Assembly: GCA_910573755.1 (NCBI GenBank)
Contig: CAJTBO010000021.1
Coordinates: 1 to 64,000, forward strand
Source: Lachnospiraceae bacterium
GTDB lineage: Bacteria; Bacillota; Clostridia; Lachnospirales; Lachnospiraceae
Direction of reading: 5' to 3'
Length of the DNA stretch: 64,000 nucleotides
In this document: one piece after another, positions 4,844 to 19,825 of the stretch
Position numbering within the stretch: position 1 is the first letter of the stretch
Layout of the letters: each line of letters begins with the position of its first letter
Notes under the pieces: generated by a model
The model's input: the letters and a program-made list of their open reading frames with translations, nothing else
Told to the model about the DNA's origin: nothing
The model's database searches: none
Position numbers and translations under genes: made by a program

Positions 4844-5248
4844 TTATCCGGCAAGTATCTCATCCAGCAGCTGAAGCAGTTCCAGTGCACTCCTGAATAC
4901 CGTCTCCTGATCTTCATTCTGCCAGATCAGTTTTCCCTGCCATGTGCAGTTTTCCCGGAAAAGTATCTGGATACGGAACACCGCCGTATCCTCCCGGTCA
5001 TCACACATCGAATGAATCAGCGGGAGCGGCCTGCCCGGACAGTTTTCCAGATCCAGCAGACTGTCCAGAAGCAGGATCATCTGTGACAGACTCTGTAACT
5101 CTTCCTTTTTCTCCAGCCGCGGATGCTGCAGACAGCCTTCTATCACACCGTCTTTATACGACCTGATCGAGACTACCGCTTCACAGCTATTGCAGGGAGA
5201 CATGTTTTTCCTAAACATACTTCCCTGAAGCCTTCTGCCCTGATGCAC
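4844..5248 (-). CDS. Small protein of unknown function upstream of the surface protein
   Basis: 134 residues from a GTG codon preceded by AAAGGTGG; an internal ATG (MFRKNMS) is possible but has a poorer site. A cysteine pair (SPCNSCEAV) stands near the N terminus. The C-terminal half, with VFRIQILFRENCTWQGKL and a leucine-rich helix at the end, looks like a small alpha/beta fold, and I have no family name for it. No signal peptide or membrane span is visible. It ends about 29 bp before the surface-protein start, so the two form one operon. A role in controlling or assisting production of the surface protein is inference from position only. The 147 bp upstream hold a 6-bp GCCGCT hairpin at 5292-5306 and presumably the operon promoter. 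Confidence 0.65.
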   Translation of the reverse strand: MHQGRRLQGSMFRKNMSPCNSCEAVVSIRSYKDGVIEGCLQHPRLEKKEELQSLSQMILLLDSLLDLENCPGRPLPLIHSMCDDREDTAVFRIQILFRENCTWQGKLIWQNEDQETVFRSALELLQLLDEILAG

Positions 5249-5395: not shown

Positions 5396-6598
5396 TCAAT
5401 ATCTCAACACCGCGATCTGATAGGTAAGCCGTGCCCTGGAATGCCTGTATACCTTATGGAAACTGCTGTCAAGCCTGTTTATCACAAGCTGTGCGTTCTT
5501 CTTGTCAACTCCCGCCAGCATCAAAATATAAGAGCCGGCTTCGAGCCTTGCAACAGGGTCACCAAGCCGGAGCCCCTCCAGCAAAATGCGTTCCAGCCGG
5601 CGCGAATCCGTTGCCGGCGCGGCTTCTTTACCCAGACTTACGATAACAAGTGTGGAACTCTGCCCCGAGCGCATCAGATGCCTCTTTTCCAGTGCCACAA
5701 TATTCTGAAACATCTCAAAGGTACAGAAAAACGCATGCTGTTCCTGATCCTCTTCACATATCAGCCTGAAAATATCGTCCGCCTGCAATCCGTTTCTTCC
5801 CATTCCGAGCGCCAGCGCGCGGATCTGCTCTATCTGCCCACCCGGTAGCAGTCCAAATTCCTGCTCCAGCTTTTCCTGAAATGCCTCATACACCTCAAGC
5901 GCCCGTTCCGCCTGCCCCAGCGCGATCAGCGCCCGCATCTGATAGGCTGTAAATTCTTCCACGGCAAAATCAATTCTGTATGCCTGCTCGCAAATGCCGG
6001 TCATCTCGATCCAGCGTTCCTTTTTATATAAAAGCGGCAGAACCGCTCTGCAGGCATCCAGATACAATGCTCTGTAATACTGCCTTGATACCATTGCCCA
6101 GTCACTGTCGTTCGCCAGAAGAAAATCTCCCCGATACAGCGCGATTGCCTTTAAAATCTGCTCCGGATCGATATTCTCCGGCATTTTTCCGGCTTCCAGA
6201 CAAGCCTCCTCGAACTGCTCCGCGTCCAGTTCCAGCCTGACACCGGGAGACCACATATAGCCAAAGGGCAGCGTCAGAAACAGTTCTTCCTCTCCCGGAA
6301 ACATCTCCTTCAGTAAATTCCGTACTCTAAAAAGCATATTCCGCAGCGCGTTCCCCGGCGCTTTGCTCTTTTCCGTCCAGAATTTCTCGATCAGTTCCTC
6401 CGGAGAGATGCAGCGCCTGTGGTTTACGATCAGATACTGTAAAAAAGACAAGGCCTTTTTTCCGGCTTTCACCGCCCCGGCGCCATGCGCCTGCTTTCCC
6501 TCTTCCCCATAGGAAAAAGCCCCCAGCAGTTCAAATCGTATGATCTTTTTCTCTTTTGTGCCACCCAAATCCCCGCTAAGATTTTCCACCTTTCTCAC
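5396..6598 (-). CDS. SARP/BTAD-type transcriptional regulator with C-terminal cyclase-like domain
   Basis: 400 residues, GTG start with GGGCGGA just upstream. Residues about 20-100 form a winged helix of the OmpR/SARP type (VKAGKKALSFLQYLIVNH, then the LRNMLFRVRNLLKE recognition region). Residues about 110-260 are a bacterial transcriptional activation domain of helical TPR-like repeats (ALYRGDFLL, ALIALGQAERALEVYEAF). The last 130 residues resemble a degenerate GGDEF/cyclase-like domain (FCTFEMFQNIV, DPVARLEAGSYILML) without a catalytic GGDEF motif. Such proteins activate neighbouring genes in known systems. It is 7 bp downstream of the 135-residue gene and next to the surface-protein operon, which is its obvious candidate target. 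Its own promoter is not evident in the present orientation of the neighbouring inverted-repeat cassette (7051-8194). Confidence 0.8.
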   Translation of the reverse strand: MRKVENLSGDLGGTKEKKIIRFELLGAFSYGEEGKQAHGAGAVKAGKKALSFLQYLIVNHRRCISPEELIEKFWTEKSKAPGNALRNMLFRVRNLLKEMFPGEEELFLTLPFGYMWSPGVRLELDAEQFEEACLEAGKMPENIDPEQILKAIALYRGDFLLANDSDWAMVSRQYYRALYLDACRAVLPLLYKKERWIEMTGICEQAYRIDFAVEEFTAYQMRALIALGQAERALEVYEAFQEKLEQEFGLLPGGQIEQIRALALGMGRNGLQADDIFRLICEEDQEQHAFFCTFEMFQNIVALEKRHLMRSGQSSTLVIVSLGKEAAPATDSRRLERILLEGLRLGDPVARLEAGSYILMLAGVDKKNAQLVINRLDSSFHKVYRHSRARLTYQIAVLRY

Positions 6599-6605
6599 TC
6601 CGCCC

Positions 6606-7013
6606 TCAGCCGCATCCCCGCATCAGTTTCACCATTCTGCCAACTTCCTCAAAGTCCTCCTGATCCTCCCTGTCAAACCATATCTGCTTTCCGATCAGAA
6701 TATAGGGCGCGCGCCTGCTCAGTTCCGATATCATGCTTCCCGCTGTCCGTCCGGTCAGTTCCGTCCTGATCCGGAAATGACAGTTCTCGGAGTTATAAAG
6801 ATACAACTCCCCGTCTGTCTCTTCCGTGATATCCGTAATCTCCGGCTCGAACCAGGCGCCGGAATCCCTGTCAGGTATCCTGATCCCCGCCAGAACCAGC
6901 TCTCCGTAGGGAATCCTGCATTTCCCCATGAGGGAATCCACGATCCGGATACATTTTTCAGTAAAATCGACCCTCTCCGGCTTGAATGTAATGTTCAAAT
7001 TTTTTTCCATCAT
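6606..7013 (-). CDS. Small protein of unknown function, first gene of the SARP operon
   Basis: 135 residues, ATG ATG start with AAGGGAG 6 nt upstream. The sequence is mixed alpha/beta and acidic (DFTEKCIRIVDSLMG, PEITDITEETDGELYLY, WFDREDQEDFEEVGRMV), with no signal peptide, membrane span or recognised catalytic motif. It overlaps nothing and is separated from the SARP gene by only 7 bp, so cotranscription is very likely. The 37 bp between its start and the left 23-bp inverted repeat hold no promoter I can recognise. Its function is unknown; a signal-sensing or partner role for the SARP protein would be guesswork. Confidence 0.65.
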   Translation of the reverse strand: MMEKNLNITFKPERVDFTEKCIRIVDSLMGKCRIPYGELVLAGIRIPDRDSGAWFEPEITDITEETDGELYLYNSENCHFRIRTELTGRTAGSMISELSRRAPYILIGKQIWFDREDQEDFEEVGRMVKLMRGCG

Positions 7014-7050: not shown

Positions 7051-7073
7051 CGCAGAGGTTCACACTCTGCGAC
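7051..7073 (+). repeat. Left 23-bp inverted repeat (candidate recombination site)
   Basis: It reads CGCAGAG-GTTCACA-CTCTGCG followed by AC on the plus strand and is a perfect reverse complement of the copy at 8172-8194. The 7-bp arms are perfect and the 7-bp middle is asymmetric. On the minus strand the flanking bases are TCAACTTCC, so this copy has only a 7-bp stem and no T-run; unlike the right copy, it should not terminate transcription well. Confidence 0.8.
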
Positions 7074-7078
7074 GGAAA

Positions 7079-7099
7079 AATATCAACTGCATTGGTTAA
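7079..7099 (+). repeat. Imperfect secondary inverted repeat, left copy
   Basis: The 21 bases ending ATTGGTTAA match the reverse complement of 8221-8241 at 18 of 21 positions. The left copy lies just inside the 23-bp repeat and overlaps the recombinase stop codon; the right copy lies outside the other 23-bp repeat. They could be accessory recombinase-binding sites or traces of an older rearrangement. Confidence 0.4.
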
Positions 7100-8031
7100 A
7101 AGTGAATTATATTCTTTAAACGGCTCATATTTTCTCTTTTTCGTTCCAGATCGGGATGGACATACTGGTTCATCGTAATACCAATATTGGCATGGCCTAA
7201 AATTTCACTTAATGTCTTTACATCAAATCCCACTTCAATACAGCGGGTGGCAAAGGTATGGCGGAGGGTATGGAAATGTGCTTCAGAGATGCCGCATTCC
7301 TCCAGATACGACTTCAGATAACGCTGCAGTTTTCTCGGCTCCATGCACTGGCCCGTCCCTGTCAGAATAAAAGCCTTCGGATTCCCGCAGTCGAACATCC
7401 TGCATAAAGCGGCAATATCCGGCATAAGCGGAATTGTCCGCCGGGAACTGTCACTTTTGGGCGTTCCGACGATTACCTTTGTTTTCCGGTAAGCCTCCCC
7501 GTCCAAGTCTCTGATCCTCTGAACCGTATGAGTCACCGAAATAGTCAGCGCTTCCATCGAGATATCATCCCAGCGGAGCGCACAGAGTTCCCCGACCCGA
7601 AGCCCTGTCCTGAGTGCCATGTAGACACCGAATTTACACAGATCCATTTTATCCGCAAGATACAAGATCAGCCCCTTTTCCTCCTGCTCATTCAATATAC
7701 GTATCTGCTTTCTGCTCCTTTTGGGGTAAATGATCTCAAGATTGGACTGGCTGCTCTCCGAACGCCTCCCCGCATATACAAAGATAGAATGGAACAATAC
7801 AAGAATGTCCCGAGTTGTCTTTACCGATAATTTTTTCTCATATATCAGCGTCCGGGTAAATTCATCAACCTTTTCGGAAGTAATGCCGCATAACTGTTCT
7901 GCTCCAAAATAAGGTTTAATGTGCTTTTCAATATTTACATAATATTTTGCACAGCTTGAAGGTTTCAGCCGGGAACTGTTCGAGAGAAACCAGTTGTCGC
8001 AATACTCAGAAAAATTGAACTTTTTTGTCAT
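7096..8031 (-). CDS. Tyrosine recombinase (phage-integrase family)
   Basis: 311 residues from the ATG at 8031, chosen because AAAGGAGGTG stands just upstream; an upstream extension exists but has no such site. Residues about 1-90 are the SAM-like core-binding domain (NWFLSNSSRLKPSSCAKYY). Residues about 110-300 are the catalytic domain with the expected R-H-R-H/W-Y residues: Arg in TGLRVGELCALRW, His-x-x-Arg in HTLRHTFATR, His in LGHANIGITMNQY, and the nucleophile Tyr in MNQYVHP. No relaxase, excisionase or other element gene is adjacent. It lies wholly between two inverted 23-bp sites, which suggests a dedicated invertase and not an element integrase. A weak possible promoter (TTGTGG, 18 bp, TAAACT) lies upstream. 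Confidence 0.9.
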   Translation of the reverse strand: MTKKFNFSEYCDNWFLSNSSRLKPSSCAKYYVNIEKHIKPYFGAEQLCGITSEKVDEFTRTLIYEKKLSVKTTRDILVLFHSIFVYAGRRSESSQSNLEIIYPKRSRKQIRILNEQEEKGLILYLADKMDLCKFGVYMALRTGLRVGELCALRWDDISMEALTISVTHTVQRIRDLDGEAYRKTKVIVGTPKSDSSRRTIPLMPDIAALCRMFDCGNPKAFILTGTGQCMEPRKLQRYLKSYLEECGISEAHFHTLRHTFATRCIEVGFDVKTLSEILGHANIGITMNQYVHPDLERKRENMSRLKNIIHF

Positions 8032-8116
8032 ATAATGGCACCTCCTTTTGGCTCTAAGTTTAGCGGATAAAAAACACACACCACAAGTCCGGCTGAAAAA
8101 TTTCCGACTGAATCTA

Positions 8117-8145
8117 TTGCCAAACAAACAGAGAGACGATATAAT
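8117..8145 (+). promoter_or_regulatory. Strong sigma-A promoter inside the inverted-repeat cassette
   Basis: TTGCCA at 8117-8122, exactly 17 bp, then TATAAT at 8140-8145: 5 of 6 and 6 of 6 consensus matches. It points rightwards, away from any plus-strand gene, toward the right repeat hairpin and the 3' end of the minus-strand ATPase gene. As drawn it has no gene to express, which fits an OFF orientation. After inversion it would face the SARP operon. Confidence 0.7.
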
Positions 8146-8169
8146 ACAATAGAGAAAAAGCTTTAATTT

Positions 8170-8206
8170 ATGTCGCAGAGTGTGAACCTCTGCGACATTT
8201 TTCTTA
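8170..8206 (+). terminator. Right 23-bp inverted repeat, embedded in a terminator-like hairpin
   Basis: The right copy of the 23-bp repeat spans 8172-8194. With its flanks it forms an 11-bp perfect stem (8170-8180 with 8188-8198) around TGTGAAC, followed by TTTTCTT. Read rightwards it looks like a rho-independent terminator about 20 nt downstream of the promoter at 8117-8145. The T-run lies outside the putative invertible segment and would therefore stay behind after inversion. Confidence 0.65.
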
Positions 8207-8220
8207 TTATGTGCCCGCCA

Positions 8221-8358: not shown

Positions 8359-10311
8359 TCAACGCTCCTCTGTTTTCAACGCCCGCATGGAGTTCATGAT
8401 CGCGATCACCGCCACTCCTACGTCCGCAAAAACAGCTTCCCACATATTTGCCATGCCCAGCGCCCCCAGCAGCAGTACCAATGCCTTTATACCAAGCGCA
8501 AACACAATATTCTGTTTCACGATGCGCAGGGTCTTTCTCGCGCAGCACACCACTGCCGCAATCTTTCTGACATCATCATCCATCAGCACCACATCCGCCG
8601 CTTCGATCGCCGCATCGGAACCCATGCTTCCCATGGCGATGCCGATATCCGCCCTTGAAAGTACCGGTGCGTCATTGATACCGTCTCCGGCAAACGCCAG
8701 CTTTTCATGCCCCTTCTGCCCTTCCAGCAGTTTTTCCACAAGGCTGACTTTATCTCCCGGCAGAAGTTCCGCATGCACTTCATCGATGCCAAGTTCCTCC
8801 GCTACGGCCTTTGCCGCCTGCTCTCTGTCGCCGGTCAGCATCACGCATTTTTTTACGCCCACTTTTTTCATACTGCGGATCGCCTCAGCAGCCCCGTCCT
8901 TCACAAGATCAGAGATCACAAGCGCTCCCAGATACTTTCCTTCGCATGCTGCGTATACAACGGTTCCCGCCGCCGAAACCGGCTGATAATCGATCTGTTT
9001 TAACCGCATCAGCTTTTCATTTCCCAGAAGAACTTCTCTGCCGTCTATCCTGACGCAGATGCCATGTCCCGCGATCTCTTCCGCATCGCTTACCCGGTCC
9101 ATTGCAGGCTTCCCGCTTTTTTCTTCATAAGCTTCCCGGATGGAAAGCGCAATGGGATGGTTGGAATAGCCTTCCCCCAGCGCAGCCAGTTCCAGCAGTT
9201 CCAGCTGCTTTGCCCCGCCTGTGCCGACACCTGCGGTTTCCCCGCTGCCCGCTCCGTAACTTCCTTCGTTTTCCCTGCCCTCTTTTGCCGGCAGGATTTC
9301 CGTCACCTTAAACTCACCCTTTGTCAGCGTCCCTGTCTTATCAAATACGATGGTCGTCATCTCCGCCACCGCTTCCAGATAGTTTCCGCCTTTCACCAGT
9401 ACGCCCATCTTTGACGCCGCGCCGATCCCTCCGAAAAATCCGAGAGGCACCGAAATCACCAGTGCGCAGGGACAGGATATCACAAGGAACGTACAGGCTC
9501 TCTGAAGCCACTCCCCAAAACCGCCGCCCAGAACCAGAGGCGGCACAACAGCCAGCAATACCGCGCCTATGGTCACCACCGGTGTATAATACCGGGCGAA
9601 CTTTGTGATAAACTTTTCCGTCCTTGCCTTCTTGGAACTGGCATTTTCCACCAGTTCCAAAATTTTCGCCACCGTGGAATCATCAAATTCCTTCGTCGTC
9701 CGCACCTTCAATGTACCGCTGCCATTCACGCAGCCGCTGAAAATCTCTTTTCCCGCAGCCACCTTTCTCGGCACGGATTCTCCGGTCAGCGCCGCCGTGT
9801 CAATATAGGATTCCCCGTCTGTCACGATACCGTCTAACGGAATCCGCTCTCCCGGCTTTACGACGATAATGCTGCCCACTTCCACATCGTCCGGGTCCAC
9901 CTGCAAAAGCCCGCCGTCCTGTTCTATATTTGCATATTCCGGACAGATATCCATCATCTCGGAAATAGACTGACGGGACTTTCCCACCGCATAACTCTGA
10001 AACAGTTCACCCACCTGATAAAACAGCATCACAGCCGCCGCTTCCGAATATTCCCTCACGCCGAAGGCGCCGAAGGTCGCCAGCATCATCAGAAAATTTT
10101 CATCAAAGATCTGGCCGTTTTTAATATTGCGCGCCGCCTTGTATATAATGTCATACCCGATGATCAGATAAGGCACCGCGTAAGCCGGCAGCATCAGCCA
10201 GCTCCCCGCCAGTGCGCCGAATACGCCAAGATGCTCACATACCATCAGCGCCGCCAGTAAAACAAAAGAAACTATGATCCGCTGCAGCATATTTTTCTGT
10301 TTTTTAGACAT
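8359..10311 (-). CDS. cadA: Heavy-metal P1B-type ATPase, zinc/cadmium/lead exporter
   Basis: 650 residues, an ATP-driven exporter of divalent soft metals in the plasma membrane. Visible signatures: TGES in the actuator domain, the transmembrane metal motif SCPCAL, the phosphorylated DKTGTLTKGEF, the HP locus in GYSNHPIAL, TGDREQA, and GDGINDAPVL. The final membrane pair contains Lys in NIVFALGIKALVLL and Asp in FADVGVAVIAIMNSMR, which are ZntA/CadA (P1B-2) features. A glycine-rich insert (about 350-370) lies in the nucleotide-binding domain. The N terminus has no metal-binding domain; a separate HMA protein is encoded 81 bp upstream. The order repressor, HMA protein, pump suggests one metal-induced operon. 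Confidence 0.9.
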   Translation of the reverse strand: MSKKQKNMLQRIIVSFVLLAALMVCEHLGVFGALAGSWLMLPAYAVPYLIIGYDIIYKAARNIKNGQIFDENFLMMLATFGAFGVREYSEAAAVMLFYQVGELFQSYAVGKSRQSISEMMDICPEYANIEQDGGLLQVDPDDVEVGSIIVVKPGERIPLDGIVTDGESYIDTAALTGESVPRKVAAGKEIFSGCVNGSGTLKVRTTKEFDDSTVAKILELVENASSKKARTEKFITKFARYYTPVVTIGAVLLAVVPPLVLGGGFGEWLQRACTFLVISCPCALVISVPLGFFGGIGAASKMGVLVKGGNYLEAVAEMTTIVFDKTGTLTKGEFKVTEILPAKEGRENEGSYGAGSGETAGVGTGGAKQLELLELAALGEGYSNHPIALSIREAYEEKSGKPAMDRVSDAEEIAGHGICVRIDGREVLLGNEKLMRLKQIDYQPVSAAGTVVYAACEGKYLGALVISDLVKDGAAEAIRSMKKVGVKKCVMLTGDREQAAKAVAEELGIDEVHAELLPGDKVSLVEKLLEGQKGHEKLAFAGDGINDAPVLSRADIGIAMGSMGSDAAIEAADVVLMDDDVRKIAAVVCCARKTLRIVKQNIVFALGIKALVLLLGALGMANMWEAVFADVGVAVIAIMNSMRALKTEER

Positions 10312-18784: not shown

Positions 18785-18868
18785 GCGGAAGTGTCGGAAC
18801 TGGCAGACGAGCAAGACTAAGGATCTTGTGGTGGTTACACCGTGTGGGTTCAAGTCCCATCTTCCGCA
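18785..18868 (+). tRNA. tRNA-Leu (anticodon AAG), copy 2
   Basis: 84 nt, identical base for base to the copy at 17369-17452. Its upstream flank is different and shows no promoter as good as the one before copy 1. The identity stops exactly at the tRNA ends. Confidence 0.93.
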
Positions 18869-18920
18869 TAAAAACAGCGCGGAACAGGATATTATCATTC
18901 CTGTTCCGCGCTGTTTTTAT
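18868..18920. terminator. Long bidirectional terminator hairpin
   Basis: A stem of about 22 perfect bp (18868-18889 with 18899-18920) around a 9-nt loop, A-rich on the left and T-rich on the right. It directly follows tRNA-Leu copy 2 and its right arm reaches the stop codon of the minus-strand gene at 18917, so it serves both directions. Confidence 0.88.
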
Positions 18921-19825
18921 GCGCCCCAGATCTGGTTCCTTGTGATCTCAAGGACCGTATCCGTGGGTGTGCCGGCGATCTCATCGCCGAAGATCTCCCT
19001 CAGCCTTCCGCCCTGCATCATCTCCGCCAGTTTGGACCTTGCGGATGCCTGAGCCGCCAGATCGGCAAGCTGCCGGGAACTTTGTATACTCTCCTCGATC
19101 TGTTCCTGTGCCAGCCATCTCATAAACTCAGCCCGCTTCGCCATGCGCAGATAGTAAGCCCTCACCATCTCGTCGCTGCTGACCGTGATCTCGCCGCCGC
19201 AGCTCGAAGAAACCGCATTACAGATATTCCCGTCCTCCCCGATCGCCACAGCCTGGGACATCCCGGCAGTACAGCCCGGCCTGATCGCCTCGTTGCGGAG
19301 TACATCGAAGGTAAACCAGGTATCTATCTTTTCCATGATCTCCCTGGCATATGCCGGGTCCTGCTCCATCCTTTCCTGCACTTTGGGATGGATCACGACC
19401 GCCTTGCTGCCCGGCGGAACATTGCCCAAGGCGTGGATTTCCGGCGGCGCGATAAACTTCCCGTCTTTGGAACCGTAAAAGGGGTTCGGCCCCTCCGGCT
19501 GCCAGTTTTCCAGCGTCTCTTTCGCCTTGTCCCCGGACTGATACAGCAGATAATGGGGATAATCGTTCCTCGTCCTCCAGTAGCCGCTGCTGGCATCAAA
19601 CACATGATACACCAGATTGGGATATTTTGCTTTCAGCATAGATTCCAGCGTCGCCCCCTTTGCAGCCTCCGCGCCGTCCGTCTGCGCCATCGCCGCTTCC
19701 CGGCTCGCCTGATCGACTCTCTCCAGAAAGCTCTTGTCTTTTACTTCCGGTCGTTTTGTTTCCCCGGCTGCCGCCTGAGAGCCGTAAAGCCCTATCCCGT
19801 AACCGGATTGGATCATATTACTCAT
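18917..19825 (-). CDS. Protein of unknown function linked to a LytTR two-component system
   Basis: 302 residues, ATG with GGAG 5 nt upstream. No signal peptide or membrane span is visible. The start MSNMIQSGYGIGLYGSQ and a central region with YHVFDASSGYWRTRNDYPHY, PPGSKAVVIHPKVQERM and CNAVSSSCGGEITVSSDE recall a Lachnospiraceae family often present in several paralogs per genome, without an assigned function. The C-terminal half is helical. Its start overlaps the kinase stop by 8 bp, so it is the third gene of the LytTR operon and may be its output or modulator; that is inference from position. Confidence 0.65.
   Translation of the reverse strand: MSNMIQSGYGIGLYGSQAAAGETKRPEVKDKSFLERVDQASREAAMAQTDGAEAAKGATLESMLKAKYPNLVYHVFDASSGYWRTRNDYPHYLLYQSGDKAKETLENWQPEGPNPFYGSKDGKFIAPPEIHALGNVPPGSKAVVIHPKVQERMEQDPAYAREIMEKIDTWFTFDVLRNEAIRPGCTAGMSQAVAIGEDGNICNAVSSSCGGEITVSSDEMVRAYYLRMAKRAEFMRWLAQEQIEESIQSSRQLADLAAQASARSKLAEMMQGGRLREIFGDEIAGTPTDTVLEITRNQIWGA

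Follow-up and report, generated by a model that had tools for sequence, protein, structure and literature searches.

The locus described here raises the question of whether a tyrosine recombinase gene lying between two inverted sites, beside an operon with a SARP-like regulator, turns its own segment around and thereby switches the operon. In the window, by which we mean the whole 64,000-nucleotide stretch of DNA that was analysed, two identical 23-bp sites in opposite orientation (7051-7073 and 8172-8194) enclose a segment of 1.1 kb (7051-8194). Judging from the sequence, we put the probability at roughly 85% that this segment is a self-contained phase-variation switch that flips itself with its own recombinase. 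The features that matter for the argument are:

7051..7073, plus strand: left, operon-proximal recombination site, with arms around the spacer GTTCACA; the reverse complement of 8172-8194
7096..8031, minus strand: tyrosine recombinase, 311 aa, with its start ATG at 8031 behind AGGAGGT and its stop at 7096
8117..8145, plus strand: predicted promoter TTGCCA-17-TATAAT (consensus match, 11/12), pointing out of the cassette (OFF); inversion would aim it at the gene starting at 7013
8172..8194, minus strand: right, distal recombination site; on the plus strand it doubles as the stem of a hairpin that resembles a terminator, with TTTTT behind it
6606..7013, minus strand: 135-aa small protein whose gene would be the first of the target operon; all eight copies found (in two genomes) stand behind an inverted-repeat pair
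5396..6598, minus strand: SARP-like regulator with a BTAD domain (PF03704, 8.1e-15)
4844..5248, minus strand: conserved protein, 134 aa as listed, which adjoins the SARP gene in L066, L071, L186, L187 and L188
882..4820, minus strand: large surface protein of 1312 aa, with repeats of the DUF11 type and, at its C-terminus, a FILTED domain
8359..10311, minus strand: heavy-metal ATPase of the right flank, convergent with the outward promoter of the cassette

The sites and the recombinase between them

The left site reads CGCAGAG-GTTCACA-CTCTGCG-AC and the right site is its exact reverse complement, which gives positions 7051-8194 the flanking inverted repeats of an inverton. A search of the 64 kb for the extended palindrome GTCGCAGAG-N7-CTCTGCGAC with at most three mismatches finds the two sites only, compared to 0.03 matches expected, and none of 100 shuffles contains two copies. 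Exact inverted pairs of 15-mers with starts 30-2500 bases apart are similarly rare, there being two in the whole window; one is the pair of cassette sites and the other a short hairpin at 18865-18923. The single long open reading frame between the sites is that of the recombinase, the remaining two that are listed (100 and 60 aa) overlapping it on the opposite strand. The preliminary description, which had named two perfect, opposed 23-bp sites around exactly one recombinase gene, was thus exact.

The protein matches Pfam Phage_integrase (PF00589, 6.6e-26) and carries a SAM-like domain. Tyrosine recombinases share the catalytic motif R...H-x-x-R...H...Y, and the corresponding residues R145, H254, R257, H280 and Y290 are invariant in an alignment of 11 family members. 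Its family matches are to tyrosine-recombinase families only, with none to the serine recombinases of the Hin type. The best solved relatives are the Int proteins 6en0, 6emy and 6emz, which we take to be the integrase of the conjugative transposon Tn1549. Elements of the Tn916/Tn1549 type have an integrase with an N-terminal arm-binding domain and an excisionase or cargo between their ends; the window segment holds one long open reading frame, and its enzyme has no KRKDG-type motif. A simple pattern finds this N-terminal stretch, presumably an arm-binding motif, in the recombinases of 32 of 43 cassettes, the window enzyme being among the 43 and without it. Some cassettes have short repeats (e.g. 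GGTCA, CAGTCA) in both gaps, which are candidate, though only suggestive, arm-type sites.

Predicted promoter and terminator, and how the switch would work

A lenient promoter scan (9/12, 2 kb) gives three matches where 3.2 are expected, hence no excess. When the 142-base 5' gap is shuffled 500 times, however, only one shuffle reaches 11/12. On the evidence of its consensus match and its conservation, the segment contains a predicted promoter that could face the downstream gene after inversion. In the assembled orientation it faces the right site, which is followed by a T tract and is terminator-like on the plus strand, and beyond it lies the convergent gene at 8359-10311, so the dead end proposed in the preliminary description is borne out. 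When folded, the OFF transcript (8152-8210) pairs over 11 bp at the right site to give a hairpin with TTTTTC behind it, the stretch having -20.0 kcal/mol. In the ON transcript as modelled, a hairpin of 7 plus 2 pairs arises (-17.3 kcal/mol for the whole stretch); behind it stands TCAACTTCC, and a T tract is absent. A distal terminator is not a rule of the family: at least five T in 10 nt occur at the distal site in 10 of 41 cassettes and at the proximal site in 8 of 41, and we rejected the idea.

The mechanism we propose is as follows. The recombinase would bind both inverted sites, exchange strands across the 7-bp spacer and invert the entire segment together with its own gene. In the OFF state, which is the assembled one, the strong promoter would fire to the right and be halted at the right site, where hairpin and T tract of the fixed flank combine. 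In the flipped, ON state it would read to the left into the genes for the small protein, the SARP and the surface protein, passing the other site, where no T tract follows. As the T tract is supplied by the fixed flank on one side only, a site would stop RNA only there, and after a flip the same tract would be expected to stop the recombinase transcript. The recombinase would be expressed from within the segment in both states, and switching would therefore be reversible. The proposal that inversion aims the promoter at the gene starting at 7013 and at the SARP gene fits the layout, the promoter being known by its consensus match. From these arrangements we infer promoter function, terminator function and control of the operon by the cassette.

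Between the stop of the recombinase (7096) and the start of the small gene (7013) a terminator scan lists none, giving only a weak 6-pair stem at 7247-7229 inside the recombinase gene; some low basal operon RNA is thus possible in the OFF state. Together with the fact that recombinase and operon are co-directional in all three cassettes beside a SARP gene, this leaves room for a different view, in which the switch mainly controls read-through from the recombinase, the assembled state is ON and the outward promoter is irrelevant. We think this very unlikely, since the outward promoter recurs in related cassettes (35 of 44) and since such a promoter is directed at the small gene in two segments of the same genome that contain no recombinase (L062 and L063, below). 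A promoter-bearing switch remains the preferred reading.

The operon and its cassette in other species

Reading away from the cassette, the left flank encodes the 135-aa protein, the SARP-like regulator, the second small protein and the surface protein, the last of which is likely to be the end target of the switch. The AlphaFold model of the 135-aa protein is confident for residues 5-110 and weakly PH-like, with no fold match at E <= 0.001.

The genomes used for comparison include one per species. One scan of their contigs finds one close relative of the recombinase (L036) and two distant ones, and a search of the genus (9 genomes) adds two further relatives: L066, beside a SARP gene, and L070 (60-61%), the next nearest in the genus, which has long flanks and no site pair. 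L036 comes from a C. symbiosum MAG, with L066 being the same stretch from G004, and its recombinase is 79-80% identical to that of the window; L071, from a species of another genus, shows 62%. Both of these loci have the cassette, the SARP gene and the second small protein in the order of the window. The 135-aa small gene was not found in L071, and tblastn with the window surface protein gives no match in either L066 or L071; downstream in L066 lies a 1520-aa protein with SpaA domains. The promoters of the orthologues are set almost as far from the distal site as that of the window (TTGCCA-17-TATAAT in the window, TTGCCA-17-TATAAT and TTGCGA-17-TATAAT in the orthologues, which match at 10-11/12). 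The spacers are GTTCACA in the window and GTTCATA and GTTTATA in the two orthologues, changing between species with identity kept within each pair.

A look at close relatives for the opposite orientation, as the preliminary description had suggested, showed one state at this locus: all three SARP-linked cassettes with both sites (the window and its two orthologues) are OFF, with the promoter directed away from the operon. In a fourth, L187 in G316, the contig breaks off within the recombinase gene; its relative direction agrees with that of the other three. The uniform orientation would fit a frozen relic that once flipped and is now fixed, but of the explanations considered this is the one we find hardest to credit: the recombinase is intact with its catalytic residues, the window sites are perfect, and spacer identity has been kept within each pair despite the spacer change between species. 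Nor is there a conserved loss of the sites, as both orthologues retain the two of them. We therefore continue to regard the cassette as a probably active switch.

Searching 397 genomes for the SARP gave matches in 7. Three of these (L186, L189, L190) have no recombinase of the window's family in the stretch examined. G316 is the only genome of its genus among those compared, hence it offers no further comparison of the SARP locus, and genus searches around G021, G317 and G374 gave no further orthologue beside the same target. In L199 (G409) the match is confined to the cassette. A different arrangement is found in G345, a genus-mate of the L071 genome, where the same SARP/FILTED operon stands behind a short inverted-repeat segment with an external recombinase (L188:4497-7540). 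From these sequences the type of switch before the operon seems to have been exchanged between L071 and L188.

A family of self-enclosed recombinases

Though the window locus has few orthologues, its recombinase has many relatives. At E <= 1e-85 the recombinase profile matches at least 98 places in at least 75 of 397 sampled genomes of the bacterial family, these counts being lower bounds as at most five candidates were scored per genome. We surveyed 72 loci, namely 70 of the 71 best-ranked of the 98 places and two from the genus, which leaves out one place with an internal stop and 27 that ranked lower. Site pairs were sought with a filter for inverted, semi-palindromic 21-bp sites of 7-7-7 layout within 2.5 kb, agreeing at 17/21 or better.

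Such a pair is present at 43 of the 72 loci, and at 41 when 19/21 or better is asked for, compared to 2 of 181 and 0 of 181, respectively, for random placements. Direct repeats give 5 of 72, each being the same palindromic pair as the inverted match, and among other recombinase loci of the window's own genome 1 of 18 has a pair at 17/21 within flanks of 1.5 kb. We accepted 44 of the 72 loci as having an inverted pair around the recombinase, which in these relatives too lies inside its own segment. They are the 43 from the filter less L149 and L161 (dropped by eye as unlike the rest, L161 being one of the 41 at 19/21 or better), plus L073 and L074, whose inner arms are degenerate, and L065, whose pair exceeds the 2.5-kb limit. 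The filter found no pair at 29 loci, of which 3 were paired by other searches; some are cut near contig ends (L077, L122, L127) and others, e.g. L070, have long flanks.

Tyrosine recombinase strand exchange demands spacers that are identical within a pair, not between loci. Within the 41 pairs we count 25 mismatches in the outer arm, 7 in the inner arm and 1 in the spacer, the last in a pair scored out of frame (L156), and there are 36 distinct spacers, the same within a pair and different between loci. The inverted arms and 7-bp spacer assigned to the window sites at the outset thus agree with how sites of the family vary. In 35 of the 44 cassettes one or more promoter matches at 10/12 or better are directed to the distal site, facing away from the recombinase; overall, the raw counts, without comparison to shuffles, are 44 divergent and 7 co-directional matches.

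A viral or plasmid origin was considered and rejected. Phage records contain eight recombinase matches (29-43%), and the two that were examined have cassettes, one of which is 100% identical over 5.6 kb to the bacterial locus L120, in the same orientation. A scan of viral contigs gave no match to the recombinase, megablast of the L177 and window cassettes against phages likewise gave none, and a scan of up to 5000 plasmid records had no match above 41% among the matches listed, the nearest being from R. albus.

Inversion among the relatives

Comparison of paired cassettes within single genomes catches the inversion itself. In G374 the cassettes of L177 and L174 are 95% identical in plus relation while their flanks align in minus relation (92% over 2.5 kb and 93.5% over 248 bases); the breakpoints fall in the sites, whose outer arm has a C/T difference that goes with the flank. 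A similar picture emerges in G122, where the cassettes of L130 and L136 align in plus relation (87.6%) and flank pieces in minus relation, on one side only. As these alignments demonstrate, cassettes of the window's recombinase family flip, for instance between L174 and L177. Flipping probably also occurs at the exact locus in the window.

With targets assigned by homology and states by the direction of the recombinase, helicase targets are ON in 2 cassettes and OFF in 3, TnpB-like targets ON in 3 and OFF in 5, LoaP targets ON in 1 and OFF in 1, and SARP targets ON in 0 and OFF in 3, so that three of the four shared target families occur in both states. OFF may be the usual state, if assemblies show the commoner one. 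A 10/12 promoter is present in 13 of the 18 cassettes with an assigned state, and in only 3 of the 6 called ON.

These same data bear on another explanation, that the sites are the ends of a small mobile element whose recombinase moves the cassette from place to place, with promoter effects being incidental. The kinship with Int proteins, which we take to be conjugative-transposon integrases, would agree with it, as would the occurrence of cassettes before unrelated gene families and the several recombinase copies per genome (e.g. at least five in G374 and at least four in G122). However, inverted sites with identical spacers, as found here, give inversion and not excision. L174 and L177 share both flanks, and L130 and L136 one, so these pairs are duplications combined with inversion, not jumps, and all 18 assigned targets read away from the cassette. 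We consider mobility an improbable explanation. An invertible promoter cassette, as first proposed for the window, is the best reading, related cassettes being found in both orientations relative to homologous flanks.

Several of the target genes are of interest in themselves. One recurring target (L174, L176, L177, L163, L075) is a helicase that has ResIII/DEAD domains along with repeated HA domains (PF03457, tested in L174); in L174 and L163 it weakly matches models of PbeA and of type IV restriction. A LoaP/NusG-like antiterminator, with the LoaP model just below its cut-off, stands behind the cassette in L130 (5413-6177) and in L136, which are in opposite states in one genome; in L130 a sugar transferase gene comes next. 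At 29-90 bases from the cassette, a TnpB/Cas12f-like gene (about 440-460 aa) is found in L065, L141, L146 (partial), L155, L156, L160, L167 and L170, with matches to PF07282 in L065 and L155, to NCBIfam TnpB below cut-off in L065, L155 and L170, and by homology in the others. These proteins retain the zinc-ribbon end, and acidic RuvC residues, which we take to be the catalytic ones, look replaced; the TnpB-like protein may thus be nuclease-dead, TldR-like and under phase-variable control.

Probable further switches of the genome

Three paralogues of the 135-aa protein are encoded in the genome of the window, and the C. symbiosum MAG has four homologues; each of the eight genes is preceded by a pair of inverted repeats with a similar type of promoter. 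One paralogous small-gene/SARP locus (L063) is orthologous to L067 of the second species; the two align in minus relation over kilobases on both sides and in plus relation over the approximately 279 bases between the repeats, meaning that the short promoter segment is inverted.

At a second paralogue (L062, contig C3) the sites are CGCAAAG-GTTCATA-CTCTGCG and CGCAGAT-GTTCATA-CTCTGCG, 203 bases apart, and the promoter is ON, before the small gene and then genes with PelG and glycosyltransferase domains. The segments of L062 and L063 contain no recombinase, and none of the 23 recombinase matches in the genome lies on C3. Because its sites are nearly identical to those of the window and no recombinase was detected nearby, this Pel-like polysaccharide operon could be switched in trans, and the window recombinase probably flips the 0.2-kb promoter segment before it as well. 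As the spacers of the window's contig (C21) and of C3 differ by one base, one would expect recombination between the two loci to be disfavoured. For a single site-like match at C3:48897, L079 contains no inverted partner that is exact over 15 bases.

On another contig of the genome, C9, a further cassette (L065:12111-13424) lies beside a TnpB-like gene. There the site pair encloses two nearly identical open reading frames (MNHLKTSGSISKLASFTGTIGYPLMNDY..., L065:8839-10764) in addition to the recombinase, making a flippable segment of 3.7 kb.

Discussion and comparison with known systems

Taken as a whole, these loci could represent a new and widespread class of self-flipping tyrosine-recombinase cassettes, placed before master regulators (SARP, LoaP, nuclease-dead-looking TnpB-like proteins, helicase), with the window recombinase serving a second, Pel-like switch in trans and a one-base spacer difference keeping the two apart; we give this broader picture an even chance. 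If true, the Hin switch would have a self-contained counterpart built on a tyrosine recombinase, and a common one in one large family of gut bacteria. The picture predicts that SARP, LoaP and TnpB-like regulators are expressed in only part of a population. Additionally, the modular sites with their cassette-specific spacers could serve as orthogonal genetic switches.

Comparable to the cassette of the window are short invertons of the same kind of locus (L063, L064, L067, L068, L069, L188), which likewise have a homologue of the small gene first, followed by SARP or polysaccharide genes, with a TTGCCA-18-TATAAT-like promoter in all five that were scanned (L063, L064, L067, L068, L069). They differ in being about 0.27-0.35 kb long, with other site sequences and the recombinase outside (L063/C4, L064, L068, L069, L188), and their recombinases have another SAM-like domain where tested (L064, L188).

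Among known systems, Hin is a serine recombinase, unlike the enzyme of the window cassette, which is a tyrosine recombinase with 7-bp-spacer sites. The likeness lies in the layout: in the Salmonella H segment the hin gene lies inside the inverted segment that re-aims a promoter (PMC5903667, PMC2784873), just as the window recombinase lies inside the segment it would flip. A putative 844-bp fimbrial inverton of Providencia stuartii also encloses a recombinase gene and stands beside a surface-structure locus, though it is one putative case with 14-bp imperfect repeats, likened here by description and not by sequence (PMC5903667).

The fim and RecV types resemble the window cassette in that a recombinase inverts a short regulatory segment between inverted repeats. 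The fim recombinases lie outside the segment in its immediate vicinity, and C. difficile cwpV combines RecV-type inversion with an orientation-dependent terminator, which the window cassette also appears to have, but its promoter lies outside the segment and recV is not near cwpV (PMC2784873); the window cassette has both its predicted promoter and its recombinase inside. Pneumococcal psrA is located between hsdSB and hsdSC and yet catalyses the IR1 inversion between hsdSA and hsdSB (PMC4948785), and a 2025 survey of invertons in a gut community reports invertases near invertons that are generally not regulatable by them (PMC11892184). Our literature search, limited by strict co-occurrence and sparse coverage of subscription journals and hence weak evidence, returned no description of a self-contained tyrosine-recombinase family. 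The preliminary description had known of no cassette that has the recombinase inside the flipped segment and feeds a SARP regulator; for the recombinase inside its own segment there are the precedents of hin and, putatively, Providencia stuartii. The layout is thus not new in principle, Hin having it already, while its widespread tyrosine-recombinase version appears to be new.
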